The notes below the pieces were generated by a model. The model had not been told where the DNA came from and made no database searches. It was given only the letters and a program-made list of their open reading frames with translations. Below are positions 7,061 to 31,449 of a DNA stretch of 64,000 nt, piece by piece (position 1 is the stretch's first letter; every line of letters starts with the position of its first letter). The position numbers were made by a program, and so were the translations under genes. Source of the DNA: Erysipelotrichaceae bacterium (GTDB taxonomy: Bacteria; Bacillota_I; Bacilli_A; Erysipelotrichales; Erysipelotrichaceae); the NCBI GenBank assembly GCA_017473265.1, contig JAFULQ010000006.1, forward strand, positions 62,001 to 126,000, given 5' to 3'.

Positions 7061-9844
7061 CTATTTCATTACTCCAAAATCATATTGTAAATAATCAGGA
7101 AGTTCATTTTCCATGACTATATCATACAAATATGTAATAACATCTCTTTTACGTTTTACATCATATTTAACTTGTTTACGTGGATTGGTCATCTTACCTT
7201 TACCTACATAAGTAAATGGAAGAACAATACCATTTTCATCAGCCATTTTACGTACAAATACATATGCACATTCACTATTTATTTGCATTCGCACATGTGA
7301 TTCAGGTACATCAGCCATACTTTCCCATTGGAAAACATTCTTTTCTAAGAACTTATCTTTATAATTTAAACGTTCTTCAATAGATGCATCTTTCTTTAAA
7401 GAAGAGAAGATAATAACCTTATTATCATAATAATAAGTACCTACCTGATTGTATCCAGGATTCTTTAAGAACATCGTTTGCACTTGATCCATACGATAAC
7501 TATGCCACAACTTAAATCCAGACTCATTACCAAACTCAACAAAATAACGAGTTAGTCCATAAGATAATAAATCAAACACATATTCTCTTAAATCATCATC
7601 TACTTTTACATTTAATACTAAAGAATCTTCTTCACTACTTACAAAACCCTTTTCATAAATAAAACGCAATGCATGATCAATTTCTTCTTTTCTGCAATCT
7701 ACTATATTTTCATATAAATATTCTTCTATTTTCTTAAGTTCAACTATACCTTTAAATAAACATTCAAATATTAAATATTCATGTTTTCTTACAAGAGGTA
7801 ATAGGCTAGAAAGGTAATTAATAAAAGCAACTTGTTCATCTGTAAATACTGGTAAGTTTTCTTCTTCAATACCTCTTAAGAAATTATAATATGATATATT
7901 CTTTTTGTTCTTAGTTTTAATATTCATAAACCTTAACAAATCAGGAGCACAATCATTATTTAAATAATCCATATGCTTAGGCGCAAATTCACAATTAATA
8001 TACTTCTTAAAATTAAAGTAATCTTGTTTCATATATGACAAACTATTAAAGTTTTCATTTTCAATATATTCTATAATTTCTTCTTTACTTAAATCATCAA
8101 TATGAATTTCTACACCATATTCTGCTAAACCTAGTGCAGAGAAATCATCACGCACTAATGATTGCATCAATTTCTTTTCCATAATTAGATTCTTAGACAA
8201 GCTACCTAAAGCAAATGCAATCTGTACGCTACGCTTATAACTATTACCAATAAAATCTAATACAGTTACATAAGATTTATTTTAATACTTACGCAAGAAA
8301 CGTCCTAATTGTTTAATAAAGATTGTACTAGATTCTGTAGGACGCAGGAAAAGAACCATATTCACTCCAGGAATATCTACACCTTCATTTAAGATATCTA
8401 CTGTAAATAGAATTTCTAATTCTGCAGAATCACTTTGTAAATCATTATAAGCACGTACACGTTCGCCTATTGTATTCTTACCAGTTAGATATGCAGTCTT
8501 ATACATACTAGACATTGCTTCACACATCATACGAGCATGAGTTACATTACGACAAAATGCTAACGCTTTTAATTTACCTTCTACTCTATGTTCTTCAATT
8601 TTACTAGAGATAAATTCTACATGTTCTTCACCAGCTAATTGGGCTACCAATTTTCTCTCTTCACTCTTTGTTAATCCATAATCTACCAATTGGTCTCGTA
8701 TACCATAATACTTAAATGGAACGACCAAATCATTCATAATAGCATCTCTTAGTCTTAATTCATATGGTACATTCTTATCAAATAATTCAAACACATCTTC
8801 ATTATCCATACGTTCTGGAGTCGCTGTTAACCCCAATAAAAACTCAGGTTCAAAATAACTAATAATTTGTTTATATGTTTCTGCAGTCGCATGATGACAT
8901 TCATCAATAATAATATAGTCAAATGCATCTCTAGCAAACAATTCTAAAGACTTACACATGGTAATATTCGTCGCAAATACAAAGTCCGCATCCATGTCTT
9001 TATGTTCACCAGTAAACAATCCATAACTTGAACCATTACCAAAAACATCCCTAAATGTTTCCATAGCTTTCTTCAAGATAGAACCTTCATGAACGACAAA
9101 TAATAAGCGTTTAGGATTAAAGTTTAAAGCATCAAAAGCTGCTAAATATGTTTTACCACTACCAGCTGCCGCTACTACTAATGCTCTATTCGTTCCTACT
9201 GCACGATAACGATTCAACTCTTTTAAAGCCTTTTTCTGCATATAATTAGGCTTTACTTTACCACTAGATAAATCATAGTCCATATCCCAACGATCAATCG
9301 CAAAGTTCAATTTATTAGCATACGTATTAATAAGTTCTTGATTTAATGAATATGTCTTCATCCATTTATCTTCAAACTCATTCATTGCATGTCTATATAC
9401 ACTAGGGATATCTTCAGAAACAACTACATCCCATTCAATATTCTTTAATAATGCATATCTAGTTATATTACTAGAACCTACAATTACTTCATAATGACTA
9501 TCAAACTCAAATAAATACCCTTTTGAATGATATCCAATCACAGAATACTGTGCACCACGAAAACTTTCATAATCTAAATGACATTCAAAGTTTTTATATT
9601 TATTCTGTAATTCAATAAAAGTCTTAAGAGATTCTATATCTGTAAAATTCTGATATGTAGAAGTAATAATACGCCCTTTAGCACCTCTTTCTACAGCAGC
9701 ATCAATATCTTTTATTAATAACACTAATCCAGCTTTCTTAATAAAACTAACAGAAAAGCAAAAAGACTTACATCTACGTAAGTTATCTTTCACTTTATCT
9801 AAAAATGTTATTTCTGTATAGTTTGTTAGGAATAGATTAGTCAT
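7061..9844 (-). pseudogene. PLD-DEAD/DEAH helicase with DUF3427, split by an in-frame TAA
   Basis: The first part (8282-9844, 520 codons) has a phospholipase D-like nuclease domain (HSKGYLFEFD and GSSNIT) and an SF2 helicase core (AAAGSGKT, IIDECHHA, LGLTATPE, EGVDIPG). It ends at TAA (8282-8284) just after QLGRFLRKY, where helicase motif VI sits. The same frame continues without a gap as KSYVTVLDFIGNSY and SLSKNL into 7061-8200, which has the C-terminal half typical of DUF3427 proteins. One base change (for example GAA to TAA) explains the split. ATG at 9842-9844 follows AAAGAGGT. A restart near 8200 could give a free C-terminal half. Intact homologues are restriction-like helicase-nucleases, so this system is probably disabled or needs readthrough. 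Confidence 0.9.
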
Positions 9845-10003
9845 ATATTACCTCTTTGTTATTATCTCAATTATACTCTTTGTACCAATATAAAAAAAGC
9901 TGGATTATTCACTAAATTTTTGTACTGCATATAAAGCAAGGAATAATTAATTTTATACTCAGTGCATTTCAATCGTAAAATATTGTATTTCATGCAAGAA
10001 AAA

Positions 10004-10029
10004 AAGATGTTACAAACAAGCAACATCTT
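10004..10029 (-). terminator. Terminator after mcrC
   Basis: Stem AAGATGTT / AACATCTT with a 10-base loop, followed on the minus strand by a T run. It lies directly after the mcrC stop and ends the McrBC transcript. The rest of the 188-base gap to the helicase holds no gene. Confidence 0.85.
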
Positions 10030-10032
10030 AAT

Positions 10033-11067
10033 CTAATCACTAAAACAATTATTAGCAATATTATCTAATTGTTTAGATATTTCAGAAAACTCTTGGTTCA
10101 AATCAAGCATTTTAACGCTAATTTTATTACCACTCATCATATACGTATGATTTAAATGTATATCCTCATCCGTTTTAGCATACAACAACATACCAGACAC
10201 TTCATGAGGTACATTTCTTAACTCATACTCTTTATTCTTTACATAAGCAAATATTTGGTACAAGTTATTGGATACTAGTTTTTCTGAATCAAAATGATAT
10301 TGTAAAGCATATTTATAAAACTTAGCATCAATAATTAACACTTTATTTCCTTTTGACAATGTAATATCTGTTTCCATCTTAGGTAATAGATCATCAAATC
10401 CATCATCTAATTGCCACTCTATTTGTTCTTTATTGCTGCTTAAATTTCCATGATGCTTTCTATAGTATTTTAGGATAAACTTCTCATATAAAGCAGCCAT
10501 ACTTTTATCACTTAAGAAATTCATCATTTTAACCGAACCATCTTGTTCTGTATGCAATAATCCTTTCATAATCAGCCAGCAAATAGATATTAATAATCTA
10601 TATGTTTGATTATTTCGATTATAGTTTATTCTCCAGTTGATTCGATTTTTATCTAATATATCTACTTCATTAAAGAATACCATCAACTTCTTTAATGCTT
10701 TCTTTTTATCTTTTCCTATATCTGTTTTTATTAATTCATATACAGTAGTTTTAATTATTTGATTCATATACGAATTAACTGAGAATTCATCATAAGAGCA
10801 CACCAATTGTTTCTTTAAAATACTATTGGATTTAATTGACTCTGTTATATTAATTTTACCTCTAACAGAAGACAATGTATTCTCTTCTCTAATATAGGAT
10901 TTATTTAATCCCTGTTTGATTTGACTAGATATTGCAGTAATTAATATTTCTGCGCACAAATCACTAACATTATCAAATGATTCTAATTCTATTTTCTTAT
11001 ACTTATCTTGCTTTAATGCATCAAATACATATGAAAGCATATAGTAAACATTTTTAACTAAAATCAC
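10033..11067 (-). CDS. mcrC: McrC-like nuclease subunit of modified-DNA restriction system
   Basis: The product has 344 residues. McrC is the nuclease partner that McrB GTPase rings activate to cut DNA carrying modified bases. Visible features are the conserved SSVRGKI stretch at 67-72 and a PD-(D/E)xK centre: METDITL with D234, then LIIDAKFYK with D247 and K249. The length is usual for McrC. The start overlaps the mcrB stop by 4 bases, which fits coupled translation. A hairpin terminator follows the stop. Confidence 0.92.
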   Translation of the reverse strand: MILVKNVYYMLSYVFDALKQDKYKKIELESFDNVSDLCAEILITAISSQIKQGLNKSYIREENTLSSVRGKINITESIKSNSILKKQLVCSYDEFSVNSYMNQIIKTTVYELIKTDIGKDKKKALKKLMVFFNEVDILDKNRINWRINYNRNNQTYRLLISICWLIMKGLLHTEQDGSVKMMNFLSDKSMAALYEKFILKYYRKHHGNLSSNKEQIEWQLDDGFDDLLPKMETDITLSKGNKVLIIDAKFYKYALQYHFDSEKLVSNNLYQIFAYVKNKEYELRNVPHEVSGMLLYAKTDEDIHLNHTYMMSGNKISVKMLDLNQEFSEISKQLDNIANNCFSD

Positions 11068-13214
11068 TTAATACTTCCTCTTAGTTTTTCTGACCATTCT
11101 CTAACGTTAGAAAGCTCATCAAACCAGTATTCTTTGATCATTGGGATTAATTCATACTCTACGATTTGTTTTAGTCTTTCATCATCTATATCTTTAGATG
11201 TGAAGTAACTATGACCAATGCAGAATCCTTCACCTAAAGATTCATCCTTAGTAATAACTTCATTTAATGATTCTACATATTCAATTAACTTATTAAATTT
11301 TGGATTATTCACTTCTTCTTTATGTTTTAAGAATCCTTCAGATCTAAACGCAGGTTTCATATCATAGAAAGCAAATCTTCTTCTCAATGCATAATCAAGC
11401 ATTGCTAAGCTTCTATCTGCAGTGTTCATCATACCAATGATATGTACATTCTTTGGCACTGAGAATCTTTCTTTGGAATACAACAACTGTAACTCATGCC
11501 CACGTTTATCAGCTTCAATTAACATGAATAATTCACCAAAAATCTTACTTAAATTACCTCTATTAATTTCATCTATAATAAAGAAATATGGATTTTCTTC
11601 ATCAATTTTTGCTTCTTTACAGAAGTTATAGAATACTCCCTTAGATAATTCAAATCCTGTATCATTTGGTCTATATCCTTCAATAAAATCTTCATAAGAA
11701 TAACTTTGATGAAATTGAACTAACATGACTCTACCTGTATTCTTTTCACCCATAATAGACCAAGCTAATCTTCTAGCCATATAAGTTTTGCCAACACCCG
11801 GTGCACCTTGAAGAATAATATTCTTTTTATTCTTTAACAATGAAACTAAACTATTATATTCATCTTTATCCATATACACTTCATTCAAGAAATCTTCTTC
11901 ATTATATTTTGCATACTTTGTTTCTTTTTCTTCGATTTCCTCAATTTTAGATTCTTCCTCAACAAAGAATGCATTTAGTTTATTTACATAATCTGGATAT
12001 GGTGTAATGTCTGTTAATGTTTTTACTATAGCATTACCTGGATGAGGCCATTCACCATTATGAGTCCAATCAACCGCACGAATATGTTTAAATCCATCTT
12101 CCTGTTCCGGATCATATTGATAATCAGATGTTACTACACCTCTACCAATTACTTTATGTAATCCTTTTTTAACAAAAACAACATCGCCAACTTTCATTTC
12201 ATGAACAAATTGCCAAATAGCATAACTTGGCCACTTAAAAGACCATTCAGGATTCACAGTTGCTTTTAACTTATCAATTATTTCTTGTTTACTCGTATAT
12301 TGAGTAGCATCTTCTATTTCTCCATACTTAAGTGCCATAATTCCTTTGTTATAGAATTCTTTCCACATAGCAGAACCATCTCCAGGAGAATAAATCCAAT
12401 AACGAGTACCAACATCAGAATCATCACCCATTGCGTTTTCCATATCGGCAGTTTTAATTTTCGCTTTTTCTAATTTATTTACTTCATTTGATTTTTTCCA
12501 CGCTTCACTAGAAACATCAACAAAATTTTCAAATCGATCATCAGTTTTAATATACTCTTTAATTGCATCTAATAATGCAAAATATTTGCTTGCTGCAATT
12601 TTAGATTCTATAACCGGTAATGATTTAACAAACTCTTGCGGGAAGGTATTTGCTTTATAGATAAACCACTCATTACGGCTATCTAAATTGATAAATACAT
12701 CTGGTGCAATCCAGAACAACCCCATAGTAATCTTACTATTGCCGTTGTATTTTAGATTTACACAATAGTCAAACCATTTAGATATTTCTGCTTTATTAAC
12801 CTCACTATCATCTTTAGCATACACCAAAGCACTCTCAAACAGGTTCCACAAATTATCAATATCTTGTTCTTTACGTTCATGAATAAATGGGAAAAAAGTA
12901 GCATTTTGATTATTCAAAACAGGTAAGCCATCTAAATTCGTAGGAGCCGGTGTGATTACACCAATTCGTTTACCTAATTCACTAGCAAGCAACTTACGTT
13001 TATCTTCAGTTATTTGTTTATTAAATAAACCAAACACAGTAAAAGGATCAATATCAACAATAACTCCGTCTTTATCAAGAGTAGCTAAATTAATCTTAGT
13101 CTCCTCATAAACCCTTTTAATGATATTAATTAGTTCTTCTCTATTATCCTTATACTTTAATAGCTTATCAGCAAATTCTTTATAGAATTCTATCCATGTG
13201 TATTTAATATTCAT
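11064..13214 (-). CDS. mcrB: McrB-like GTPase with N-terminal EVE/PUA-like region
   Basis: The product has 716 residues. The C-terminal AAA+ domain carries Walker A GAPGVGKT (about 470-477), Walker B FFIIDEINRG and the McrB GTP-specific motif MMNTADRS (about 595-602). Residues about 268-415 (from RYWIYSPGDG to TDITPYPDYV) look like an EVE/PUA-type modified-base reader, and the first 250 residues form a separate unknown domain. Together with McrC it should cut phage DNA containing modified bases. Its promoter (TATAAT at 13237-13242, minus strand) is overlapped by a dyad shared with two regulator regions. It follows hsdS' by 120 bases. Confidence 0.92.
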   Translation of the reverse strand: MNIKYTWIEFYKEFADKLLKYKDNREELINIIKRVYEETKINLATLDKDGVIVDIDPFTVFGLFNKQITEDKRKLLASELGKRIGVITPAPTNLDGLPVLNNQNATFFPFIHERKEQDIDNLWNLFESALVYAKDDSEVNKAEISKWFDYCVNLKYNGNSKITMGLFWIAPDVFINLDSRNEWFIYKANTFPQEFVKSLPVIESKIAASKYFALLDAIKEYIKTDDRFENFVDVSSEAWKKSNEVNKLEKAKIKTADMENAMGDDSDVGTRYWIYSPGDGSAMWKEFYNKGIMALKYGEIEDATQYTSKQEIIDKLKATVNPEWSFKWPSYAIWQFVHEMKVGDVVFVKKGLHKVIGRGVVTSDYQYDPEQEDGFKHIRAVDWTHNGEWPHPGNAIVKTLTDITPYPDYVNKLNAFFVEEESKIEEIEEKETKYAKYNEEDFLNEVYMDKDEYNSLVSLLKNKKNIILQGAPGVGKTYMARRLAWSIMGEKNTGRVMLVQFHQSYSYEDFIEGYRPNDTGFELSKGVFYNFCKEAKIDEENPYFFIIDEINRGNLSKIFGELFMLIEADKRGHELQLLYSKERFSVPKNVHIIGMMNTADRSLAMLDYALRRRFAFYDMKPAFRSEGFLKHKEEVNNPKFNKLIEYVESLNEVITKDESLGEGFCIGHSYFTSKDIDDERLKQIVEYELIPMIKEYWFDELSNVREWSEKLRGSIK

Positions 13215-13334: not shown

Positions 13335-14378
13335 TCAGAATTTGGTAATTAGCCGTGTAATTATATCTACACTAATAAATTTTGATTTGTCGGTCTGTTC
13401 AACGAAGGCTGCGAATTGATTTTGTAGCTCCATGATTGGAACCTTAATGTAGGTATTCTTAACCAAATCACTATTTAAGTTTTTCACCGTTGCACCATTT
13501 ACTTTACCACTAAACTGATACTGTATATCATCACTACGGATTGCATGATAAAGATAAAATTCATTAAATGTATCATTAAAATTAGACATTATTAACCAAC
13601 CGTCATGTACACAACCATTGATTCCGAGAATATAGGGTCTACCAAAGCTCATCGAGTTTGAAAGGATAAAATCGCCTGCATATACCATACGAGATTTTTT
13701 TGCACCTTCTCGTGTAATTTTCTCTTCTGTCTTTGTAATATACAGCGAATTTTCAGAAACATCTCCGATTTTAATCCAATTTACGCCATCTTCGTTGTCT
13801 GTAATGAACGCAGAAATTGGTCTTGGCGAGGCTCCTCTTGAGATAGATATTACATCACCAATACGCACCTCGTTTTTGCAATCACCAAACAGTTCGATAA
13901 ATCGGGATTTGATTAAACAATCTAGTAATTCTGCTTGCTTTTTCTTATTACTTATAGCTTTTTCAATTTTTTCTAATATACTTATTATCTCAATTTGCTT
14001 TTTCTTAGTTGGTAAGTTGAATTCTTCTTTTTTATAATCTTTAAAATAAATATGTGGAATAGTTGCTCCTGTATTGTATTTTTCTAGATGCATCGATTTA
14101 ACTGCATAATATAGATATTTTGGTTCTATCTCTTCTTTCGGAATTAAATATTGTAGTGTACCAATAATTGATGATTTTTCTGGCAAAAACATTGTTCTTC
14201 CGACTCCCGCTCCATCTTTAACTACTGCTACATACGCCTTTTCTTGATGATATTGATCTATGTATTTAATTAATCCACTTGCACCGAAAATTGGATAATC
14301 ACCACAAAGAAATTCTAAGTCCTTTTGCGCATATGATGAAGATTCTCTATTACATACTTCTTCAAGTGTTACTCGCAT
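13335..14378 (-). CDS. hsdS: Second type I specificity subunit (silent hsdS' cassette)
   Basis: The product of about 347 residues has two target-recognition domains joined by the conserved helix LLDCLIKSRFIELFGD and ends soon after FVEQTDKSK. The ATG at 14376-14378 has only GGGAAG touching it and the upstream frame is open into the recombinase 3' end, so translation start is poor. Its C-terminus lacks the IQKSIDELQQLFDSLMQEYF tail of the first hsdS. Both recognition domains differ from those of the active copy, while short DNA stretches at the start, centre and end are identical. These features mark a donor cassette rather than a normally expressed gene. Confidence 0.8.
   Translation of the reverse strand: MRVTLEEVCNRESSSYAQKDLEFLCGDYPIFGASGLIKYIDQYHQEKAYVAVVKDGAGVGRTMFLPEKSSIIGTLQYLIPKEEIEPKYLYYAVKSMHLEKYNTGATIPHIYFKDYKKEEFNLPTKKKQIEIISILEKIEKAISNKKKQAELLDCLIKSRFIELFGDCKNEVRIGDVISISRGASPRPISAFITDNEDGVNWIKIGDVSENSLYITKTEEKITREGAKKSRMVYAGDFILSNSMSFGRPYILGINGCVHDGWLIMSNFNDTFNEFYLYHAIRSDDIQYQFSGKVNGATVKNLNSDLVKNTYIKVPIMELQNQFAAFVEQTDKSKFISVDIITRLITKF
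13380..13400. repeat. hsdS 3' direct repeat, copy in hsdS'
   Basis: A 21-base identical match to 15515-15535, encoding part of FVEQTDKSK. Same orientation in both genes. Confidence 0.85.
13882..13915. repeat. hsdS central direct repeat, copy in hsdS'
   Basis: A 34-base identical match to 16023-16056, encoding IKSRFIELFGD, the helix between the two recognition domains. Recombination here would swap the second recognition domain. Confidence 0.9.
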
Positions 14379-14384
14379 CTTCCC

Positions 14385-14400
14385 TACAAACCCAAATTTG
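14385..14400. repeat. hsdS 5' direct repeat, copy before hsdS'
   Basis: TACAAACCCAAATTTG is identical to 16599-16614, just ahead of each hsdS start. The pattern TACAAA-N6-TTTG resembles the core of a tyrosine recombinase site. Confidence 0.75.
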
Positions 14401-14403
14401 AAC

Positions 14404-15396
14404 TTAAGCAATATACCTTCTATGAGACTGTTTAACATTATTTTGATCCACCATAGCATAATGCATAGTTGTATCAATTTTAGAATGTCCTAGCAATTGT
14501 TGCACCTGTTCAATTGGCATGCCTTTATCAATAGCTCTGGTTGCTAACGTTCTTCTAAATTTATGAGGATGCACTTTCTTTATTCCTAAATTTCTACCCA
14601 AAGATCTTAATCTAATTTCTACACCACTTATATCTAATCTATTATATGGTTTATTTAATGATACAAACAAAGCAGGATTATCATCATCTCTATTATTCAA
14701 ATAATTTCTTAAATGAATCTTTGTTCTAGCATCAAAATACACAGGTCTCTCTTTATTACCTTTACCAAAGACAACACATTCTCTATTCTCAAAATCAATA
14801 TCATTAATATTTAATCTAACTAATTCACCAACTCGCATACCTGTTGATGCTAACAAATCAATAATTGCTAAATCACGAATATTAGTAGCATTATCCCTTA
14901 ACATTTCCAACGCTTCATCAGAATATGTTTCCTTAACCGTTTTATCTGTTCTAATTTTATGTATACGTCTCATAGGACTTTTAATAATATAATTCTCTTC
15001 TTCTAACCATGAGAAGAAACTAGATATAATTCTTCTTATATTATCAATATTAACTCTAGTACAAGAATTTTTATCTTGATATCTAGATAAATAACATCTT
15101 AAATCATCTGTTGTCATATGTGTAAAATGAATAAAAGATGAATCAACAAGTCTGTCCAATGTAGATTTATAATATCTCATTGTCTTTTCACTACAGCCTT
15201 CTATTTTCTTAGCCGCAATGAAACAACTTATTAATTCATCATTTGTATATTTATATTCAACTATATTTTCTTTCTCATTAGACAGTTCCACTTTATCTAA
15301 TACTCTAACTATTGTTTGATGCAATAATTCCATTTGTGCATTATCTAAAAAACGCAACATAGATTGTTCAATTTCTTTAATTAAGATTTCTTTCAT
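14404..15396 (-). CDS. Tyrosine recombinase (XerC-like) inside the hsdS locus
   Basis: The product has 330 residues from the ATG at 15394-15396, preceded by AGAGAG; an in-frame upstream start would overlap hsdS. It has an N-terminal SAM-like core-binding domain and a catalytic domain with all expected residues: Arg in STGMRVGELVRL, Lys in GKGNKERPV, HKFRRT, the GHS motif of LLGHSKIDTT, and the nucleophile Tyr in MHYAMVD. Recombinases at this position shuffle hsdS cassettes in other type I systems. It lies between two hsdS genes in the same direction, with 46 bases before and 25 bases after. Its target is probably the repeats flanking these genes. Confidence 0.92.
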   Translation of the reverse strand: MKEILIKEIEQSMLRFLDNAQMELLHQTIVRVLDKVELSNEKENIVEYKYTNDELISCFIAAKKIEGCSEKTMRYYKSTLDRLVDSSFIHFTHMTTDDLRCYLSRYQDKNSCTRVNIDNIRRIISSFFSWLEEENYIIKSPMRRIHKIRTDKTVKETYSDEALEMLRDNATNIRDLAIIDLLASTGMRVGELVRLNINDIDFENRECVVFGKGNKERPVYFDARTKIHLRNYLNNRDDDNPALFVSLNKPYNRLDISGVEIRLRSLGRNLGIKKVHPHKFRRTLATRAIDKGMPIEQVQQLLGHSKIDTTMHYAMVDQNNVKQSHRRYIA

Positions 15397-15442
15397 GTTA
15401 ATAATCTCTCTTTCTTTATTAACACAAAATATATCATAAATA

Positions 15443-16591
15443 TTATCCAAAGTATTCTTGCATTAAACTATCAAATAATTGTTGTAATTCATCAATAGAC
15501 TTCTGAATTGCAACTTTTGATTTGTCGGTCTGTTCGACGAAAGTTGCAAACTCGTTTATATCTGCCATATTAGGCAATGGCAAACTAATTTTGTTAAGCA
15601 TATTTCCCGTTATTTGATTGATTGTCGTTGTCGCACCAGTAGCAATTTGCCGCCTAAATGCATCCATTTGAAAATAAGTCATCAAATACGGATAATATCT
15701 GCTCCTAATAATCATCATAAAGGCACCAAAGGTCATTGGTTCGGAAGGATTCTTTATAAGAGCAACTTTGCCAACTAATCTGGCACTACCATTTCTCGAA
15801 CACATTAAAATATCATTGTTCTTAACATAGAGTTTTTCCTTAATAGGGCAATCAACTCGTACTGTATCAACAAAATCTAACTGACTATTCTGTATATTAC
15901 TCGAACGAAGAACAACTGTGCCATCATTGGTAACATTATCAGGAGAATAAGTCAAACCATTAAAGTATTCTGCAATCTCGGAAAGCAATACCTTTTTGAA
16001 CCCTTTGGGATTGGTTTCTGGGTCACCAAACAGTTCGATAAATCGGGATTTGATTAGGTTATCTAATAAAGATAATTGTTTCTTTTTATCATCTAGTATT
16101 TTACTTATTTTATTCAGTTTATTAATAATATCACTTTGATGTTCAATACTTGATTCTGGTATATCCAAGTCTTTCATTTTCTTTTTGTTTATGAATTTTA
16201 CCGTTCCTCCACTCAATAGAGAATTAAATTTATTGTTTTTCAATAAATAATCAAAATAGTATTTTATATATTGTGGCTTATACTGCTCAATATCAACTCT
16301 TATTAAAAACAAATTCCAAGCAATTAAAAACTCTATATCGTCTTCAACCACTATTGATTTACCAATAGTACCTATGTTAGCTAATAAAATATCACCTTTT
16401 TGAGGATTGTATTTGTTAAAATATTTATTTTTATCAGAAATCCCTAAATATTTAACATCATCTAAATCTAGATAACCTGAAGTAATATTTTTTGACTGAA
16501 TTATAGGTGTTCCTACATTTTGATATTCAACTTTATCAGCAACTGTATTTATTCCTTGATGCATTTCTAAAGTTATATTACCTAACTTCAT
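15443..16591 (-). CDS. hsdS: Type I restriction specificity subunit HsdS (expressed copy)
   Basis: The product has 382 residues, with two recognition domains separated by LLDNLIKSRFIELFGDPE and a C-terminal conserved helix FATFVEQTDKSK to the end. HsdS reads the DNA target for both HsdM and HsdR. The ATG at 16589-16591 follows AAAGGAGA with only 1-2 bases of spacing; an in-frame TAA just upstream rules out a longer form. It follows hsdM by 57 bases and precedes the recombinase. Three stretches are exact direct repeats with the downstream hsdS' copy. Confidence 0.93.
   Translation of the reverse strand: MKLGNITLEMHQGINTVADKVEYQNVGTPIIQSKNITSGYLDLDDVKYLGISDKNKYFNKYNPQKGDILLANIGTIGKSIVVEDDIEFLIAWNLFLIRVDIEQYKPQYIKYYFDYLLKNNKFNSLLSGGTVKFINKKKMKDLDIPESSIEHQSDIINKLNKISKILDDKKKQLSLLDNLIKSRFIELFGDPETNPKGFKKVLLSEIAEYFNGLTYSPDNVTNDGTVVLRSSNIQNSQLDFVDTVRVDCPIKEKLYVKNNDILMCSRNGSARLVGKVALIKNPSEPMTFGAFMMIIRSRYYPYLMTYFQMDAFRRQIATGATTTINQITGNMLNKISLPLPNMADINEFATFVEQTDKSKVAIQKSIDELQQLFDSLMQEYFG
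15515..15535. repeat. hsdS 3' direct repeat, copy in hsdS
   Basis: Identical over 21 bases to 13380-13400, near the 3' end of the gene. Homology weakens just beyond, with alternating matches and mismatches. Confidence 0.85.
16023..16056. repeat. hsdS central direct repeat, copy in hsdS
   Basis: Identical over 34 bases to 13882-13915. Same direction, 2141 bases apart. Confidence 0.9.
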
Positions 16592-16598
16592 TCTCCTT

Positions 16599-16614
16599 TA
16601 CAAACCCAAATTTG
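16599..16614. repeat. hsdS 5' direct repeat, copy before hsdS
   Basis: Identical to 14385-14400. Here the following bases complete the dyad TACAAA-CCCAAA-TTTGTA (16599-16616). Confidence 0.75.
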
Positions 16615-16648
16615 TATGTCCACTCATTCGGGCTCTGCCTCCTTTCTA

Positions 16649-18148
16649 TTATTTATTTAATAGATTCTTTAATTCTAATAATTCTTTTTCAATTTCTTTA
16701 TCTAATTCAAAAATCTTAGCCAAGATTTCTTCTGTAGGAGGATACTCCACAGGTACATATTTAGTTTCTTTATATTTATTAATAGATAAATCATATTCAT
16801 TCTTAACAATTTCATCTTTAGTTACAAAGAAACTCTTATCAGTTCTTGCTCTTTCTTTTTCATTTTCTAAATGATTATATCTTTCGATAATGTCTGGAAT
16901 GTCATTTTCTTTCACTTCACTTCGTTTATCATCTAATGAATAACCATCTGATTCCATATTATAGAACCAAACATCTTTTGTACCACTTGGATCTTTAGTA
17001 AATACTAATACCGCAGTAGACACTCCAGCATAAGGTTTAAATACACCTGAAGGCATAGAAATAACTGCTTGTAACTTATTATTTTCTACAAGTTCTTTTC
17101 TAATCGATTTATGTGCTTTAGATGAACCAAATAACACCCCATCAGGAACAATAGCAGCGCATCTTCCACCCATTTTTAAAGACTTAATAAACAATGCTAA
17201 GAATAATAATTCCGTTTTCTTAGTTTTGCATAAAGCAGAAATATCTTTTGAAATATCTTCTTCAAATACACTACCAGTAAAAGGTGGATTGGCTAGAATA
17301 AGTGAATATGCTTCACGTTTCTTATTTTCATCAGATAATGAATCTTGACGTTTAATAGTAGGATTATCTACACCATGTAACAACATATTCATAGCCCCAA
17401 TACGCAACATAGATGGGTCTGTATCAAATCCGTAAAACATATTATTACTAAAGTGTTCAACATTTTCTTTCTTCAATAATTCTGTTTTATAGTTTTCTGT
17501 AATGTATTCAGACACACCCAATAAGAATCCTGCGCTACCCATTGCTGGATCCATTACAATATCATTCAATGTTGGTTTAACTAATTGCACCATCATATTA
17601 ATAATATGTCTAGGAGTTCTAAATTGCCCCAATGCACCAGCTGAAGACATTTTTCCTAAACAATATTCATAAGTATCACCCATGATATCTTTATTACTCA
17701 TATCAATTTCGCTTAATACGTCTACACAAACCGTTAATACTTTTGCGGATGGAATCAAGAATACTGCATCTTGCATAAAACTAGAAAAAGCAGTCTCTTT
17801 TTCTTCTCCATTTACTGTTTTAATAAATGGAAATACATAATTTCTAACAACTTCAAACATTTGAGTAGATTCTTTATGCTTAAAGTTTTGCCATCTCAAT
17901 TCTGTATATGGAATTGTCATTTTCCCTTCATCATCTACTGAGAAATCACCTTGTTTAAAAACTGTACTTTGATATTGCAAACCGAAAAGAGAAGCGTTAG
18001 CTTCTTTCTTCGTTTCAATATCATCTAATAATTTCATAAACATTAAATATGTAATTTGCTCTAAAACTGTAATTGGGCTAGAAATACCACCAGTCCAAAT
18101 CGTATCCCAAATCTTATCAATCTTAGACTTTAATTCACCTGTTATCAT
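16649..18148 (-). CDS. hsdM: Type I restriction-modification methyltransferase HsdM
   Basis: The product has 499 residues. It is the N6-adenine methyltransferase subunit that protects host DNA and also forms the core of the restriction complex. The N-terminal HsdM_N helical region (LKSKIDKIWDTIW) is followed by the SAM motif DPAMGSAGFL and the catalytic ANPPF motif. An FGSSKAHKSIRKELVENNKL stretch and the C-terminal coiled tail that contacts HsdS are also typical. It starts 4 bases after the hsdR stop, so the two are in one operon in the order R-M-S. Confidence 0.96.
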   Translation of the reverse strand: MITGELKSKIDKIWDTIWTGGISSPITVLEQITYLMFMKLLDDIETKKEANASLFGLQYQSTVFKQGDFSVDDEGKMTIPYTELRWQNFKHKESTQMFEVVRNYVFPFIKTVNGEEKETAFSSFMQDAVFLIPSAKVLTVCVDVLSEIDMSNKDIMGDTYEYCLGKMSSAGALGQFRTPRHIINMMVQLVKPTLNDIVMDPAMGSAGFLLGVSEYITENYKTELLKKENVEHFSNNMFYGFDTDPSMLRIGAMNMLLHGVDNPTIKRQDSLSDENKKREAYSLILANPPFTGSVFEEDISKDISALCKTKKTELLFLALFIKSLKMGGRCAAIVPDGVLFGSSKAHKSIRKELVENNKLQAVISMPSGVFKPYAGVSTAVLVFTKDPSGTKDVWFYNMESDGYSLDDKRSEVKENDIPDIIERYNHLENEKERARTDKSFFVTKDEIVKNEYDLSINKYKETKYVPVEYPPTEEILAKIFELDKEIEKELLELKNLLNK

Positions 18149-18152
18149 AGTT

Positions 18153-21100
18153 TTATTCTCCTTGTAGTGTTACACAATTATGCACAGTATTTACAATATT
18201 AACTACCAAAGTTGCTTTATTTCCAAACAAATCCAAAACTTGATAATTATTAAATGGAGCCTCATAAATCACAGTATTAGGAATAATATCACCATTTTCT
18301 CTAGCATAATTAATAATTGAATAAATAAATTCTTGTTGTTGTGCAGTCAAATAATTTTCATTCAAATATTCACCAAATTTCTTATTAACCGCTTCCTGTT
18401 CTATACCAACAATAGAACGAATAAAAACAGCTAAATTATCTAATTTAGTAAATTTATAATAGTCTTCCTTACTTCCTGTTTGTACCCATAAAATATTTTC
18501 CAATTCTTCAAAATCTTCATAAGTTAAGGTCTCAAGATTTTTAATCTTTTGAATTGTTTTATTGTGAGAATTTTCCATCAAGTAATCTACCACTTTTTCA
18601 TAGTAGGTTCTAATATCAATCAAACCGGAAAAGTTAGAATCCTTAGTAATGGTTTCATCGTCTGTATTAATAAAGGCTTTTGGATGATCTCCACCAGAAA
18701 TATATTTCATTAATCCTCTGATTGATTTACGATAATATTCCATATCCTCAACAGTAGGATTATTCCATACATTTCCATAACACAATTCATTTAAATCATC
18801 TCGTTTATCATAGATTTCTGAAATATTTGCAATTTGTAGAAGATATTTACAAAGATCTCTAACAACTTGAACTACATTTACTACAGTTTCAATAGAACCT
18901 GTTGTTAAGATTGCATATTCTATTTTTAACATCTTCAAATCAAATGAATATGATAAATAATTATCATGAATATCGCTATCTAATAATGATGTTAAATAAT
19001 ACTTAATTTCTTTCACATTTAGAACAGATAGTGCATCCCAACTGTTTATCGAACAGTATTTATCAACATAACTCATTTTATCTCTAACTGATGTTTTTCC
19101 TGATGAATTTTTAATACTCTCTATTTGTGAATGTAATAATTGTTTTAATTCTTTATAATATTGTTTTTCATAATCAACCACTTGGTGATCTATCTTTTGC
19201 AATTCCAATAACATATCTAATCGCATTTCAAATAGTTTTTGAGTGATAGATTTACCATTTGCACCATCAGAACCATCTGGATGGGTATCAAAATATTCGA
19301 AATTTCCACAATAATCAAATATTAAGAAATAACGTTTGTCATTTCCATCAATCAATCCAGAACATAGTCTTGTTCCTCTACCAATCATTTGAACAAACTT
19401 AATTTTAGATCTTACTTGTTTAAAGAATACTAAATTAAGTACACTTGGAACATCAATTCCAGTATCCAACATATCTACAGACACCGCAATTCTAAAGCCA
19501 TCTTCTGTTTCAAATCTCTCAATTAATCTTTCACTATTTTTTACTTGATTATCAATTAATTGACAATAATCAGGATACTGTGGATACATTTCATTAAATG
19601 TGTCTACAATCAATTTCGCATGCAAATGATTGTACGCAAAAATAATTGATTTACCTAATTTTTGACCACCTTCAATTTTCAAACCCTTTGTCATCAAATC
19701 TTCTAATACTTGTTTACATGTATCTTTGTTATAAATAATTTTAAATAATTTTGAACCATTAATAACTGATTCATCATCATATGATTCTTCAGTAATCAAA
19801 TCTACTTTTTGTTTATCCGCAATTGATAAATCTTTGTATTTAATACCAGATTGAATCAATTTCGTTGTTTTGTTAACAACTTTATACGGCACTAAATATT
19901 TATCTCTAACAGCTTCTTCTAATGAATAAACAAAGTTAGGTTCTCCACTATCACAATTAAAAAGTTCATACGTATTCGCATCCACATCTTCTTTTGGAGT
20001 GGCCGTTAATCCTACTAATAAAGAATCAAAATAACTAAAGATAACCCCATATTTATTAAAAATTGATCTGTGCGCTTCATCTATAATAATTAAATCAAAT
20101 CTACCAATTGTATATTCTAATTTATCTTCTGCATCAATTACATTAATCATCGTTTGATGAGTTGAGAATGTTATTCTAGCATTAGGTTCATTTGCCAATG
20201 ATTTATCAGATAATACGCAATATGTCATATCCGGTAAAAGATTTTTGAAATTCTTAAATGCTTGTCTAACCAAACTTGTTCTATCTGCTAAAAATAGCAC
20301 ATTTTTAATCCAATTATTTCTTGCTAATACATCAACTAAAGAAATTGCAACTCTAGTCTTACCAGTACCAGTTGCCATTACCAATAAACCTTTTCTTTGC
20401 ATACTATTAAAACGTTCACAAATCTTAGTAATCGCTATCTTTTGATATGGTCTATTTGTAATATTATCTTTTATTGAAATATCTGAAATTCGTTTTACAT
20501 CTCTATTATTAATTAATAATTCTAATTCAGAAATTGTATGAAATCCATTTACTACTCTAGCAGGATATTTTCCATCAACAATATACGTAGTGTATCCATT
20601 TGTATAATACAAAATCGGTATATACCCATATACCTTCTCCAAACACTCTCCATATTCTTTCACTTGGAATTGTCCCATACTTGGATCAATACTTGTTTTC
20701 TTTGCTTCTACTACTGCTAAAGGTTTCCCATCACGTCCATATAAAACATAATCACAGAATCCAACACCTGAAACATTTTGAATACCTTTGACAGGAATCT
20801 CACAACAAGCTTTTGCTGGTATAACTGAACCACACTTTACCTTATGACCATTAGAAAGAACATATTCAGAATCAACTGGAACCACTTCCCATCCTGCCTC
20901 TTGTAAGTATGTATCAATATAAACCTTTCTAGTTTCAGCCTCACTCATATGAGCTGGAGTAATAGCACTAATAGTAGCATTGTCTCCATCAACATTGCAT
21001 AATTTATCCTCTAAAAACTTAAGTAAATACTTAATATTATCACATGCAACTTCGGCTTGTTTTCTTTTAATCTTTCTTTCATGCAATGCATTATTTCCTA

Positions 21101-21350
21101 CAATACGAACAAAATGCAAAGAATCTAGTAAAACATCATTATTAAAAAATTGTTTAATTGTATCATTATTGATTAACTCTAACAAAGATGCACTTAGAGG
21201 TTTACGAACACTATAAAAATCAAAAACTAAATCAATAGCTTTTTCTAATACTTGTCTGCAAACGATAACAACATCACTATTGCTTTTATTATCTTTAGCT
21301 AAGTCAAAAATAGATTCCAAAACTTCTATCTTGTTTTTATAGTCACTCAT
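18153..21350 (-). CDS. hsdR: Type I restriction endonuclease HsdR (EcoEI-like)
   Basis: The product has 1065 residues from the ATG at 21348-21350, which follows GAAGGTGAAAAA; an upstream in-frame start lacks a site. Residues 1-115 look like DUF4145. Then a PD-(D/E)xK nuclease centre (CDYVLYGRDGKPLAVVEAKK), an SF2 motor (ATGTGKTRVA, IIIDEAHRS, GLTATP, a DTGIDVPSV motif and QMIGRGTRL) and a C-terminal EcoEI_R_C-like domain. It translocates and cuts unmethylated DNA as part of an R2M2S complex. It is the first gene of the hsd operon; a TATAAT-rich stretch lies just upstream. No disruption is seen. Confidence 0.95.
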   Translation of the reverse strand: MSDYKNKIEVLESIFDLAKDNKSNSDVVIVCRQVLEKAIDLVFDFYSVRKPLSASLLELINNDTIKQFFNNDVLLDSLHFVRIVGNNALHERKIKRKQAEVACDNIKYLLKFLEDKLCNVDGDNATISAITPAHMSEAETRKVYIDTYLQEAGWEVVPVDSEYVLSNGHKVKCGSVIPAKACCEIPVKGIQNVSGVGFCDYVLYGRDGKPLAVVEAKKTSIDPSMGQFQVKEYGECLEKVYGYIPILYYTNGYTTYIVDGKYPARVVNGFHTISELELLINNRDVKRISDISIKDNITNRPYQKIAITKICERFNSMQRKGLLVMATGTGKTRVAISLVDVLARNNWIKNVLFLADRTSLVRQAFKNFKNLLPDMTYCVLSDKSLANEPNARITFSTHQTMINVIDAEDKLEYTIGRFDLIIIDEAHRSIFNKYGVIFSYFDSLLVGLTATPKEDVDANTYELFNCDSGEPNFVYSLEEAVRDKYLVPYKVVNKTTKLIQSGIKYKDLSIADKQKVDLITEESYDDESVINGSKLFKIIYNKDTCKQVLEDLMTKGLKIEGGQKLGKSIIFAYNHLHAKLIVDTFNEMYPQYPDYCQLIDNQVKNSERLIERFETEDGFRIAVSVDMLDTGIDVPSVLNLVFFKQVRSKIKFVQMIGRGTRLCSGLIDGNDKRYFLIFDYCGNFEYFDTHPDGSDGANGKSITQKLFEMRLDMLLELQKIDHQVVDYEKQYYKELKQLLHSQIESIKNSSGKTSVRDKMSYVDKYCSINSWDALSVLNVKEIKYYLTSLLDSDIHDNYLSYSFDLKMLKIEYAILTTGSIETVVNVVQVVRDLCKYLLQIANISEIYDKRDDLNELCYGNVWNNPTVEDMEYYRKSIRGLMKYISGGDHPKAFINTDDETITKDSNFSGLIDIRTYYEKVVDYLMENSHNKTIQKIKNLETLTYEDFEELENILWVQTGSKEDYYKFTKLDNLAVFIRSIVGIEQEAVNKKFGEYLNENYLTAQQQEFIYSIINYARENGDIIPNTVIYEAPFNNYQVLDLFGNKATLVVNIVNTVHNCVTLQGE

Positions 21351-21551
21351 TTTTTCACCTTCATTTACATTGCATATATTATAATTATAAAACATAACAG
21401 TTATTTATAATAGTTTTATTTTTTCACATGCCCATACTACTTTATAATACTTTGGATTATTCCAGATCTCTTTACTCTATTATTCTCCACTATTCTTATT
21501 CCCACAAAACTATGCTAAAATACATATATAAACATAGAAAGGACATACACT

Positions 21552-30117: not shown

Positions 30118-31449
30118 CTATTTTTTATACGTTATTATTTTCTTTAAAATCTGTTCTTTCGACAATCCACCATATTTTCTTGCGAAATCATCAAAACTAG
30201 CATTTTTATCAAGTCCTAAACATACAAATAATTCTTCTTTAATATGTTTATTATACTCTTCAAGCAAATTGTTTTTCCAATAATATTTTGTCTTTCTTTC
30301 TTCTTTAGAAAGTAACCAATTATCTGCACGAATACTTATACTTACACCTGCATGAGGAGAAGTATAATTTGATAACAACTGTATCAAATTAGGGCTCAAA
30401 CTTGAATATGGAAGTTCTACAGATGCAGTCCCCCACTCTACATAAAGTGTATATTCCTCAAACTTTGGAAATAAGCCATCATTCCTAAAAGACTCCTCTG
30501 TAAACAAGGTAAAATGATCATTTGTAATAGTATGTTTGGTACACACTATATTAAATTCTAAATCTTCCTCATCTAATTCTTTATGTCCAATAATAGGATG
30601 CGTTCCCCAAATAATATCACAATCACTACAAATACTTAATCTATCCAATGGTACATTTAACAAATCTTCCACTGACAAATTACCATTTGTTGTCACTAAG
30701 TCATAATTTCGAACCATAATTGGAACTGTCATTAATGAGCGCAAACTATGCCGCTTTGGTAGTTCCTCCCATTTTCGAATCTTCGATATCTCACCAGTAA
30801 TAATTCCATATCCATAACGAAAACGATCTAATTCAATTCTAAAAATATCGCCTGGTTTATATTTCACAGTCACATGCTTTGAATTACGCATACGTTCAAT
30901 TCTTTCAAAATAATTTTCAGGACAAGTTTTTATATAATACTCCATAAAACTCTGAAATTCATCATTAGAGGTTATTTTATGAATTCTATCTTCTTCACCA
31001 ATAGCTAATTCCTGATTACTCCTAATATTTCTAACAAAAATATAAGCTTGTGGTCCTTCTTCATAATACCTTAATGTGTATTGAAACTCACAACCCATTG
31101 GATAAACGGCTAATACATTAGTTGCATTGACCTTTTTCTTTTTTCCACGAGAAGTTAGTGGTAATAAATACTCTCTATTTTCTGTCACCAATTGCGTATC
31201 ATGCTCCGTTAAAAATACAGATACTATACGACCATCATTTAACATTTTATACTCATCAACAACAACTTTTTTGATGATATTTTCACTCCAATACAATGTA
31301 ACACGTTTATAATTATAATTCGTTTTACTCAAAAAATGAGTAGTATCCCAAGTAGTATCCATTGCATTTATACCAAAATATTTTCTATGCAAATCATTAA
31401 TATTTAAAAAATGATTTTCACCAAATAGTTCATTCCAAGACCAAGCCAT
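30118..31449 (-). CDS. Imm26-like domain protein, 443 aa
   Basis: The product is soluble with no signal peptide. Residues about 198-310 read KYKPGDIFRIELDRFRYGYG followed by VPIMVRNYDL and a DIIWGTHPIIG segment, the pattern I associate with the Imm26 immunity-protein family. The first 190 and last 130 residues are not recognised. It has its own promoter region, a good GAGGTGATCATAT ribosome site and its own terminator. No toxin partner is adjacent. It may be an orphan immunity or phage-sensing protein; the family call is moderate. Confidence 0.5.
   Translation of the reverse strand: MAWSWNELFGENHFLNINDLHRKYFGINAMDTTWDTTHFLSKTNYNYKRVTLYWSENIIKKVVVDEYKMLNDGRIVSVFLTEHDTQLVTENREYLLPLTSRGKKKKVNATNVLAVYPMGCEFQYTLRYYEEGPQAYIFVRNIRSNQELAIGEEDRIHKITSNDEFQSFMEYYIKTCPENYFERIERMRNSKHVTVKYKPGDIFRIELDRFRYGYGIITGEISKIRKWEELPKRHSLRSLMTVPIMVRNYDLVTTNGNLSVEDLLNVPLDRLSICSDCDIIWGTHPIIGHKELDEEDLEFNIVCTKHTITNDHFTLFTEESFRNDGLFPKFEEYTLYVEWGTASVELPYSSLSPNLIQLLSNYTSPHAGVSISIRADNWLLSKEERKTKYYWKNNLLEEYNKHIKEELFVCLGLDKNASFDDFARKYGGLSKEQILKKIITYKK

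Follow-up and report, generated by a model that had tools for sequence, protein, structure and literature searches.

A type I restriction locus of an Erysipelotrichaceae bacterium that probably switches specificity by cassette exchange between direct repeats

We analysed a stretch of 64,000 nucleotides from an Erysipelotrichaceae bacterium (assembly GCA_017473265.1, contig JAFULQ010000006.1, positions 62,001 to 126,000; the window hereafter), in which two hsdS specificity genes of a type I restriction locus lie on either side of a tyrosine recombinase gene. The locus probably switches its specificity in the way that the pneumococcal tvr locus does, by recombinase-driven exchange of cassettes between direct repeats. 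An earlier reading of the letters, made without database searches (the sequence-only reading), had proposed such an exchange through a circle that carries the recombinase, and this stood as the best explanation: in relatives, target recognition domains (TRDs) have been exchanged exactly between the repeats, and junctions on Lactococcus plasmids lie at the same motif.

The locus and its direct repeats

The assembly that holds the locus amounts to 1.80 Mb in 29 contigs. The minus strand carries all genes of the locus, in the order hsdR-hsdM-hsdS_A-tyrosine recombinase-hsdS_B, and mcrB and mcrC come next. The genes are as follows.

18153-21395, minus strand: hsdR, type I restriction subunit (Pfam ResIII, EcoEI_R_C and HSDR_N; PADLOC REase_I)
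16649-18148, minus strand: hsdM, type I methyltransferase subunit (Pfam N6_Mtase and HsdM_N; PADLOC MTase_I, E 1e-181)
15443-16591, minus strand: hsdS_A, the presumed expressed specificity subunit (382 amino acids, two Methylase_S stretches or TRDs, normal tail)
14404-15396, minus strand: tyrosine recombinase, XerA-like (330 amino acids; Pfam Phage_integrase, E 5e-37, and Phage_int_SAM_4; NCBIfam NF040815, 250 bits, cut-off 220)
13335-14378, minus strand: hsdS_B, the second specificity gene (347 amino acids from the ATG, two Methylase_S stretches, other TRDs, short tail)

Homologues of HsdR, HsdM and HsdS are clustered here, and Pfam and PADLOC together indicate a complete type I system with two hsdS units, whose four Methylase_S domains are the only ones found in the whole assembly. 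The two hsdS genes face the same way, with the recombinase gene in between, and all reading frames at the locus are open. At the DNA level their N-terminal halves are 53% and their C-terminal halves 56% identical.

Both genes share three exact direct repeats. A 16-bp repeat lies at the start (16599-16614 and 14385-14400, spacing 2214 bp), a 34-bp repeat at the centre (16023-16056 and 13882-13915, spacing 2141 bp) and a 21-bp repeat at the tail (15515-15535 and 13380-13400, spacing 2135 bp). When the 3.3-kb region was simulated 500 times with a first-order Markov model, 6 of the simulated sequences held a direct repeat of 16 bp or more, and none held one of 21 bp or more or of 34 bp or more; three repeat pairs at three matching places of both genes are not due to chance. 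Of inverted exact matches, one reaches a similar length (17 bp, 12780/17230); it falls within coding sequence, outside the hsdS pair, and seems to be fortuitous. The sequence-only reading had named the co-directional hsdS genes with different recognition domains, the shared stretches of 16, 34 and 21 bases at start, centre and end, and a circle of 2.1 to 2.2 kb; gene calls, half-by-half identities, repeat positions and repeat spacings agree with this.

Its statement that hsdS_B lacks a proper start did not hold. An ATG at 14376-14378 stands directly behind the 5' repeat and is preceded by the purines AGGGAAG, an arrangement like that of the hsdS_A start (AAAGGAGA-ATG). The accompanying statement, that the conserved C-terminal tail is missing from hsdS_B, was correct, since this gene ends in FVEQTDKSKFISVDIITRLITKF and hsdS_A in FVEQTDKSKVAIQKSIDELQQLFDSLMQEYFG.

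One motif at three site positions

We found one 18-bp motif, CAAATTCTGATTTATCGA, at all three site positions. It consists of a near-palindrome, CAAAT-N4-ATTTR, and an extension (CAAAT-N4-ATTTR-TCGA). Eleven of 95 recombinase open reading frames (ORFs) had been merged as identical. The motif was learned unsupervised from repeats that recur exactly within a locus over 15 bp or more, in either orientation and at any place (418 stretches from 66 loci including this one). It was then relearned from 412 stretches of the 65 other loci and scored on 127,966 positions of the window. The centre sites (25.7 bits) and the tail sites (21.6 and 21.5 bits) occupied ranks 1 to 4, and the 5' sites came sixth (16.1 bits) and seventh (12.9 bits). 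The best scores in 30 Markov windows had a mean of 14.6 bits and a maximum of 19.3 bits. The candidate sites are listed below.

16597-16614, minus strand: 5' candidate site A, non-coding, between hsdM and the hsdS_A start; central six bases TTTGGG; 10.9 bits, or 12.9 in the other register at 16601; weak by score alone
16035-16052, minus strand: centre candidate site A; central six bases TCCCGA; 25.7 bits, joint top
15511-15528, plus strand: tail candidate site A, motif opposite to the hsdS strand; central six bases TTTTGA in motif orientation; 21.5 bits
14383-14400, minus strand: 5' candidate site B, between the recombinase stop and the hsdS_B start; central six bases TTTGGG; 16.1 bits, rank 6; exact repeat of site A
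13894-13911, minus strand: centre candidate site B; central six bases TCCCGA; 25.7 bits
13376-13393, plus strand: tail candidate site B, motif opposite to the hsdS strand; central six bases TTTTGA in motif orientation; 21.6 bits

The three site types differ in coding context and strand: the 5' site is non-coding, the centre site encodes KSRFIE, and the tail site encodes TDKSK with the motif on the other strand. Their likeness therefore does not stem from a common protein constraint. As a control, 20 hsdS stretches from genomes without this recombinase (10 of 30 loci were dropped since their genomes hold it, and some of the 20 kept stretches overlap) gave a single match of at least 15 bits in 67,706 bases, and 19 of the 20 stretches were free of the motif at that threshold. 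A lone motif-like match elsewhere in the window (30672-30689, 16.5 bits) was rejected as a further site because it lies inside an ORF of 443 amino acids and its score falls within the range of chance maxima.

The central six bases distinguish the site types

The central six bases of the sites were compared by script in 57 loci of direct arrangement. Within a locus, every centre pair (30 of 30) and every 5' pair (6 of 6) had the same six bases, as did 52 of 55 tail pairs. Between types, centre and tail spacers matched in 0 of 160 comparisons, and 5' and centre spacers in 2 of 49. On inspection, the three tail mismatches (loci L040 and L042) turned out to be 5' sites read from the opposite strand, and the two 5'-centre matches (L012 and L019) to be centre-type sites of half genes that had been grouped as 5'. 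Centre spacers vary among loci (GCCCGA, TCGCAA, TCGCGG, TCCCGG and others), and random partners drawn from other loci matched on average in 11.2 of 30 and 12.7 of 39 cases, so identity within a locus is not mere conservation. Of 36 loci, 20 had a centre-type site behind the recombinase, 10 a 5'-type site and none a tail-type site. In seven loci the script's list held no same-type partner for that site; the present locus is one of them, and its upstream 5' site, an exact 16-bp copy, escaped the script.

At this locus the spacers are TTTGGG (5'), TCCCGA (centre) and TTTTGA (tail). By analogy with the strand-exchange region of tyrosine recombinases in general, the central six bases would be the place of strand exchange. 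They apparently serve as an address code for the site types, and the 6-bp spacer presumably keeps those types apart.

These spacers also bear on whether the locus switches by inversion, as pneumococcal ivr/cod does. Relatives of the recombinase with about 60% identity, on plasmids of Lactococcus, Enterococcus and Ligilactobacillus for instance, have the inverted arrangement, and at this locus the tail motif is inverted relative to the 5' and centre motifs. All like-type site pairs here are direct, however, the centre and tail spacers never matched in the comparison above, and an inversion that joined centre to tail would disrupt the gene. Inversion is thus a highly improbable account, and within this locus it was rejected, there being no inverted sites of like type.

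Predicted outcomes of excision and reinsertion

In the proposed mechanism this recombinase presumably acts at these sites and would join two like ones (5' with 5', centre with centre, tail with tail). The excised circle would carry the recombinase gene and measure 2214 bp (5'), 2141 bp (centre) or 2135 bp (tail). Reinsertion at the site type used for excision would restore the original locus, and reinsertion at another type would permute the TRDs. Thus, excision at 5' followed by insertion at the tail would swap the two genes, and combining 5' or tail with centre would yield N_A/C_B or N_B/C_A, the N-terminal TRD of one gene joined to the C-terminal TRD of the other. The predicted joined genes have open reading frames, with 371 amino acids for N_A/C_B, 358 for N_B/C_A and 356 for the B gene with the tail of A.

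When the order of elements (5' site, N-terminal TRD, centre site, C-terminal TRD, tail site, tail, recombinase) is worked through, the normal tail would always stay just ahead of the recombinase, and the short tail would be a property of the downstream position. The gene behind hsdM would therefore be complete in every integrated state. A start codon would come with each cassette, immediately after the 5' site, and the gene behind hsdM could hold four TRD combinations, presumably corresponding to four DNA specificities, so that a switch would be expected to change both restriction and methylation. The term donor cassette, which the sequence-only reading applied to hsdS_B, needs refining in this light: the normal tail belongs to the position before the recombinase, and TRDs brought there would regain it.

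Relatives of the recombinase

A scan of genome contigs gave 79 loci with a related recombinase, and further searches added more, with flanks fetched for part of them. Matches were found in 18 of 272 genomes of the family and 19 of 395 of the class; in the order, where the limit was looser, 11 of 15 genomes had a match, which reached at least 60% identity in 5. Within the genus, the recombinase occurred in one of four genomes, that of the window itself. Matches also came from 17 plasmid records, 7 phage records and 2 viral contigs. Three short phage-collection contigs with the recombinase (MT839915, MT838471 and MT840076) were considered as free circles and not used, as they are recorded as linear and unverified. 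On the Methanosphaera (archaeal) plasmid pNP174 (L118/L119), a recombinase 55% identical has no recognised intact hsdS adjoining it.

The patchy distribution, in the family as in the genus, would suit a dead locus, that is, an old duplication with a relic recombinase and hsdS_B as a pseudogene, as would the split recombinase frames of some relatives and the lack of a normal C-terminus in hsdS_B. This is very unlikely, given that every reading frame is open, that all three repeat pairs are exact though the TRDs between them are only 53-56% identical, and that the short tail is what the downstream position is expected to have.

We classed 96 recombinase ORFs of at least 50% identity, with identical ones collapsed, by arrangement. 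Fifty lay between same-facing hsdS genes and 24 had an opposite hsdS nearby; the rest had hsdS on one side (7), had none (4) or were too near contig ends to class (11). The arrangement tracked the recombinase tree, as the 23 inverted rows needed 5 changes compared with 20.7 in shuffles; the root of this tree is uninformative, its outgroup consisting of four pieces that are short or distant, of which three are parts of split frames from the same family. The present locus fell in a direct clade together with loci of Thomasclavelia and Holdemanella/Holdemania genomes. Exceptions to the pattern were L033 and L111, which have the direct arrangement but group with inverting clades; L111 may show just one of the states of a locus that inverts.

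The gap between hsdS_A and the recombinase gene is 46 bp here and contains no cargo gene. ORFs were read in the corresponding gaps of 11 other direct loci, and 8 predicted proteins from six of these were searched in Pfam. The matches were DUF3990 (two), DUF3791, Fic, zeta toxin, CAP12-type TIR and Schlafen/AlbA_2, and one protein had no match. This suggests a place for cargo on the circle that recalls tvrAT, with genes that are perhaps for addiction or control. Gap genes lie on the part that would form the circle in L011, L006, L034, L038, L126, L032, L047 and L031, with L006 and L034 assigned only by ORF resemblance to L011.

Traces of exchange in relatives

L011 carries two C-terminal TRDs without a single difference over 561 bp, a stretch that opens with the first base of its centre spacer and closes with the last of its tail spacer; its N-terminal halves are 52% alike. 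L036 has N-terminal halves that are 99% alike and C-terminal halves that are 52% alike, and in most other loci the TRDs differ in the N-terminal as well as the C-terminal half. One TRD is shared between L017 and L021 (98.8% over 491 bp), on opposite sides of the recombinase, and the shared stretch starts at the spacer. We also compared eight pairs of close relatives. In the plainest (L011/L063, L013/L014 and L042/L047), the sequences agreed closely between the tail site and the site behind the recombinase and lost their likeness in the TRDs; L012/L051 and L038/L039 were more mixed.

The Lactococcus plasmids pJM1A, pJM2A and pUCCL627F have identical recombinases and different TRDs in the same positions, all joined at GATAAATCATCATTTAG, which is the same site motif; pUC073A equals pJM2A over the region. 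At these plasmid loci (L112-L115, around 7277, 7925-7939, 9520 and 10180-10200), the TRDs have been exchanged at one 17-bp site. Plasmids of Ligilactobacillus salivarius were also compared, and these were too diverged for exact junctions.

Could homologous recombination between the repeats, by RecA or otherwise, exchange the TRDs, with the recombinase incidental or a helper? In pneumococcus, some tvr shuffling and circle formation persists without TvrR, at long repeats (PMC6265443), and TRD exchange between species requires import of DNA. The repeats at this locus, at 16-34 bp, are short for such recombination, however; identity in L011 and in L017/L021 ends at the edge of the 6-bp spacer; and the motif travels with the recombinase in 66 loci and is missing, at the 15-bit threshold, from 19 of the 20 control stretches. 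We consider this explanation unlikely, although less so than inversion or a dead locus.

Relation to known systems

In Streptococcus pneumoniae, hsdS of the tvr (SpnIV) locus is shuffled by circle excision and reintegration at direct repeats, and circles were detected (Kwun and colleagues, 2018; PMC6265443). This contradicts the claim of the sequence-only reading that known loci of this kind use inverted copies and inversion. According to a review, direct repeats flank each tvr TRD (PMC7154626). Like tvr, the present locus is a type I locus with hsdS pieces flanking a tyrosine recombinase, direct repeats and a 2+2 arrangement, and in both the recombinase is on the excised part and a short repeat in the middle of hsdS is joined by another at its end. 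It differs from tvr, in which two repeat types (MPR, ~18 bp; TER, ~70 bp) share an 11-bp core in one orientation, by having three short types, with the tail motif opposite to the 5' and centre motifs. In tvr there is no repeat 5' of the first TRD, which is fixed, whereas this locus has an extra 5' site; and tvr has the tvrAT genes and an attenuator before the recombinase, where this locus has only the 46-bp gap. Because of the three types and the opposite tail motif, we regard the locus as a variant that works like tvr rather than as tvr proper.

The pneumococcal ivr/cod (SpnIII) locus, in which PsrA drives inversion at a 15-bp repeat (PMC7096588, PMC4948785), likewise combines a dedicated tyrosine recombinase in a type I locus with a short site at the hsdS centre and TRD exchange. 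Its repeats are inverted, whereas those at this locus are direct; excised forms at 11-bp direct repeats were noted at cod as well (PMC4948785). The likeness to tvr and ivr/cod described here is one of locus layout. The recombinases of the four Lactococcus plasmids (annotated xerA) are 61% identical to that of the window and share its motif, and TRDs have been exchanged there, but their four cassette sites share one spacer, TCATCA, and spacers here are type-specific.

A REBASE survey of duplicated hsdS genes asked the same kind of question across many genomes; it counted inverted repeats only, and loci like this one would go uncounted (PMC7394358). Our literature search for direct-repeat hsdS excision with a dedicated recombinase found only tvr besides the excised forms of cod (PMC4948785). 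The mechanism is known in principle, and this locus is a variant of it. In the literature searched we met with neither the general site, nor the apparent addressing by spacers, nor the full extent of the direct class, and the three-address layout and the wide spread look new.

Several points weigh against switching of this kind here. The basis at this locus is the sequence of one genome, which shows a single arrangement. The 5' sites (16.1 and 10.9-12.9 bits) score within the range of chance maxima and are backed only by their place and exact repetition. On the minus strand of the hsdS_A-recombinase gap no terminator-like site was found, and tvr's attenuator and toxin-antitoxin control have no counterpart here. 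The recombinase frame is split or contains a stop in the relatives L052 (6938-7992), L058 (6983-7974) and L087, which would lock the switch if these are not sequencing errors. The direct-type junctions in relatives span different species and could come from imported DNA, and the rearrangements at the motif in Lactococcus belong to the inverting branch and its inverted arrangement.

Behind hsdS_B, mcrB, mcrC and a type IV restriction ORF make up a defence cluster (window 7061-13214). The ORF at 8282-9844 matches only positions 31-545 of the 953 of a type IV restriction enzyme model, and the ORF at 7061-8200 lies directly downstream of it; the type IV gene is perhaps split.

Significance

Beyond cassette exchange as such, we lean, with less assurance, towards a wider proposal. 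One recombinase would serve three exclusive addresses, with shared arms and a type-specific 6-bp spacer, and would reassemble start, TRDs and tail in order and in frame, the 5' address freeing the TRD proximal to hsdM. Loci of this design would form a widespread class (Bacillota, Bacteroidota, Fibrobacterota) with recombinase clades of its own and often with toxin-like or defence-like cargo.

From sequence alone, the motif defines a probable recombination site for a recombinase family at work in inverting as well as excising hsdS switches, and makes such loci recognisable in any genome. Identity of the spacer suggests a simple rule by which very short sites could keep protein modules ordered. 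For the inverting branch, the dairy Lactococcus plasmids are a ready natural panel. Direct-repeat switching is common in gut bacteria and invisible to a survey of inverted repeats. If the proposed mechanism is true, cutting out a circle and reinserting it would change which DNA the bacterium attacks and marks.

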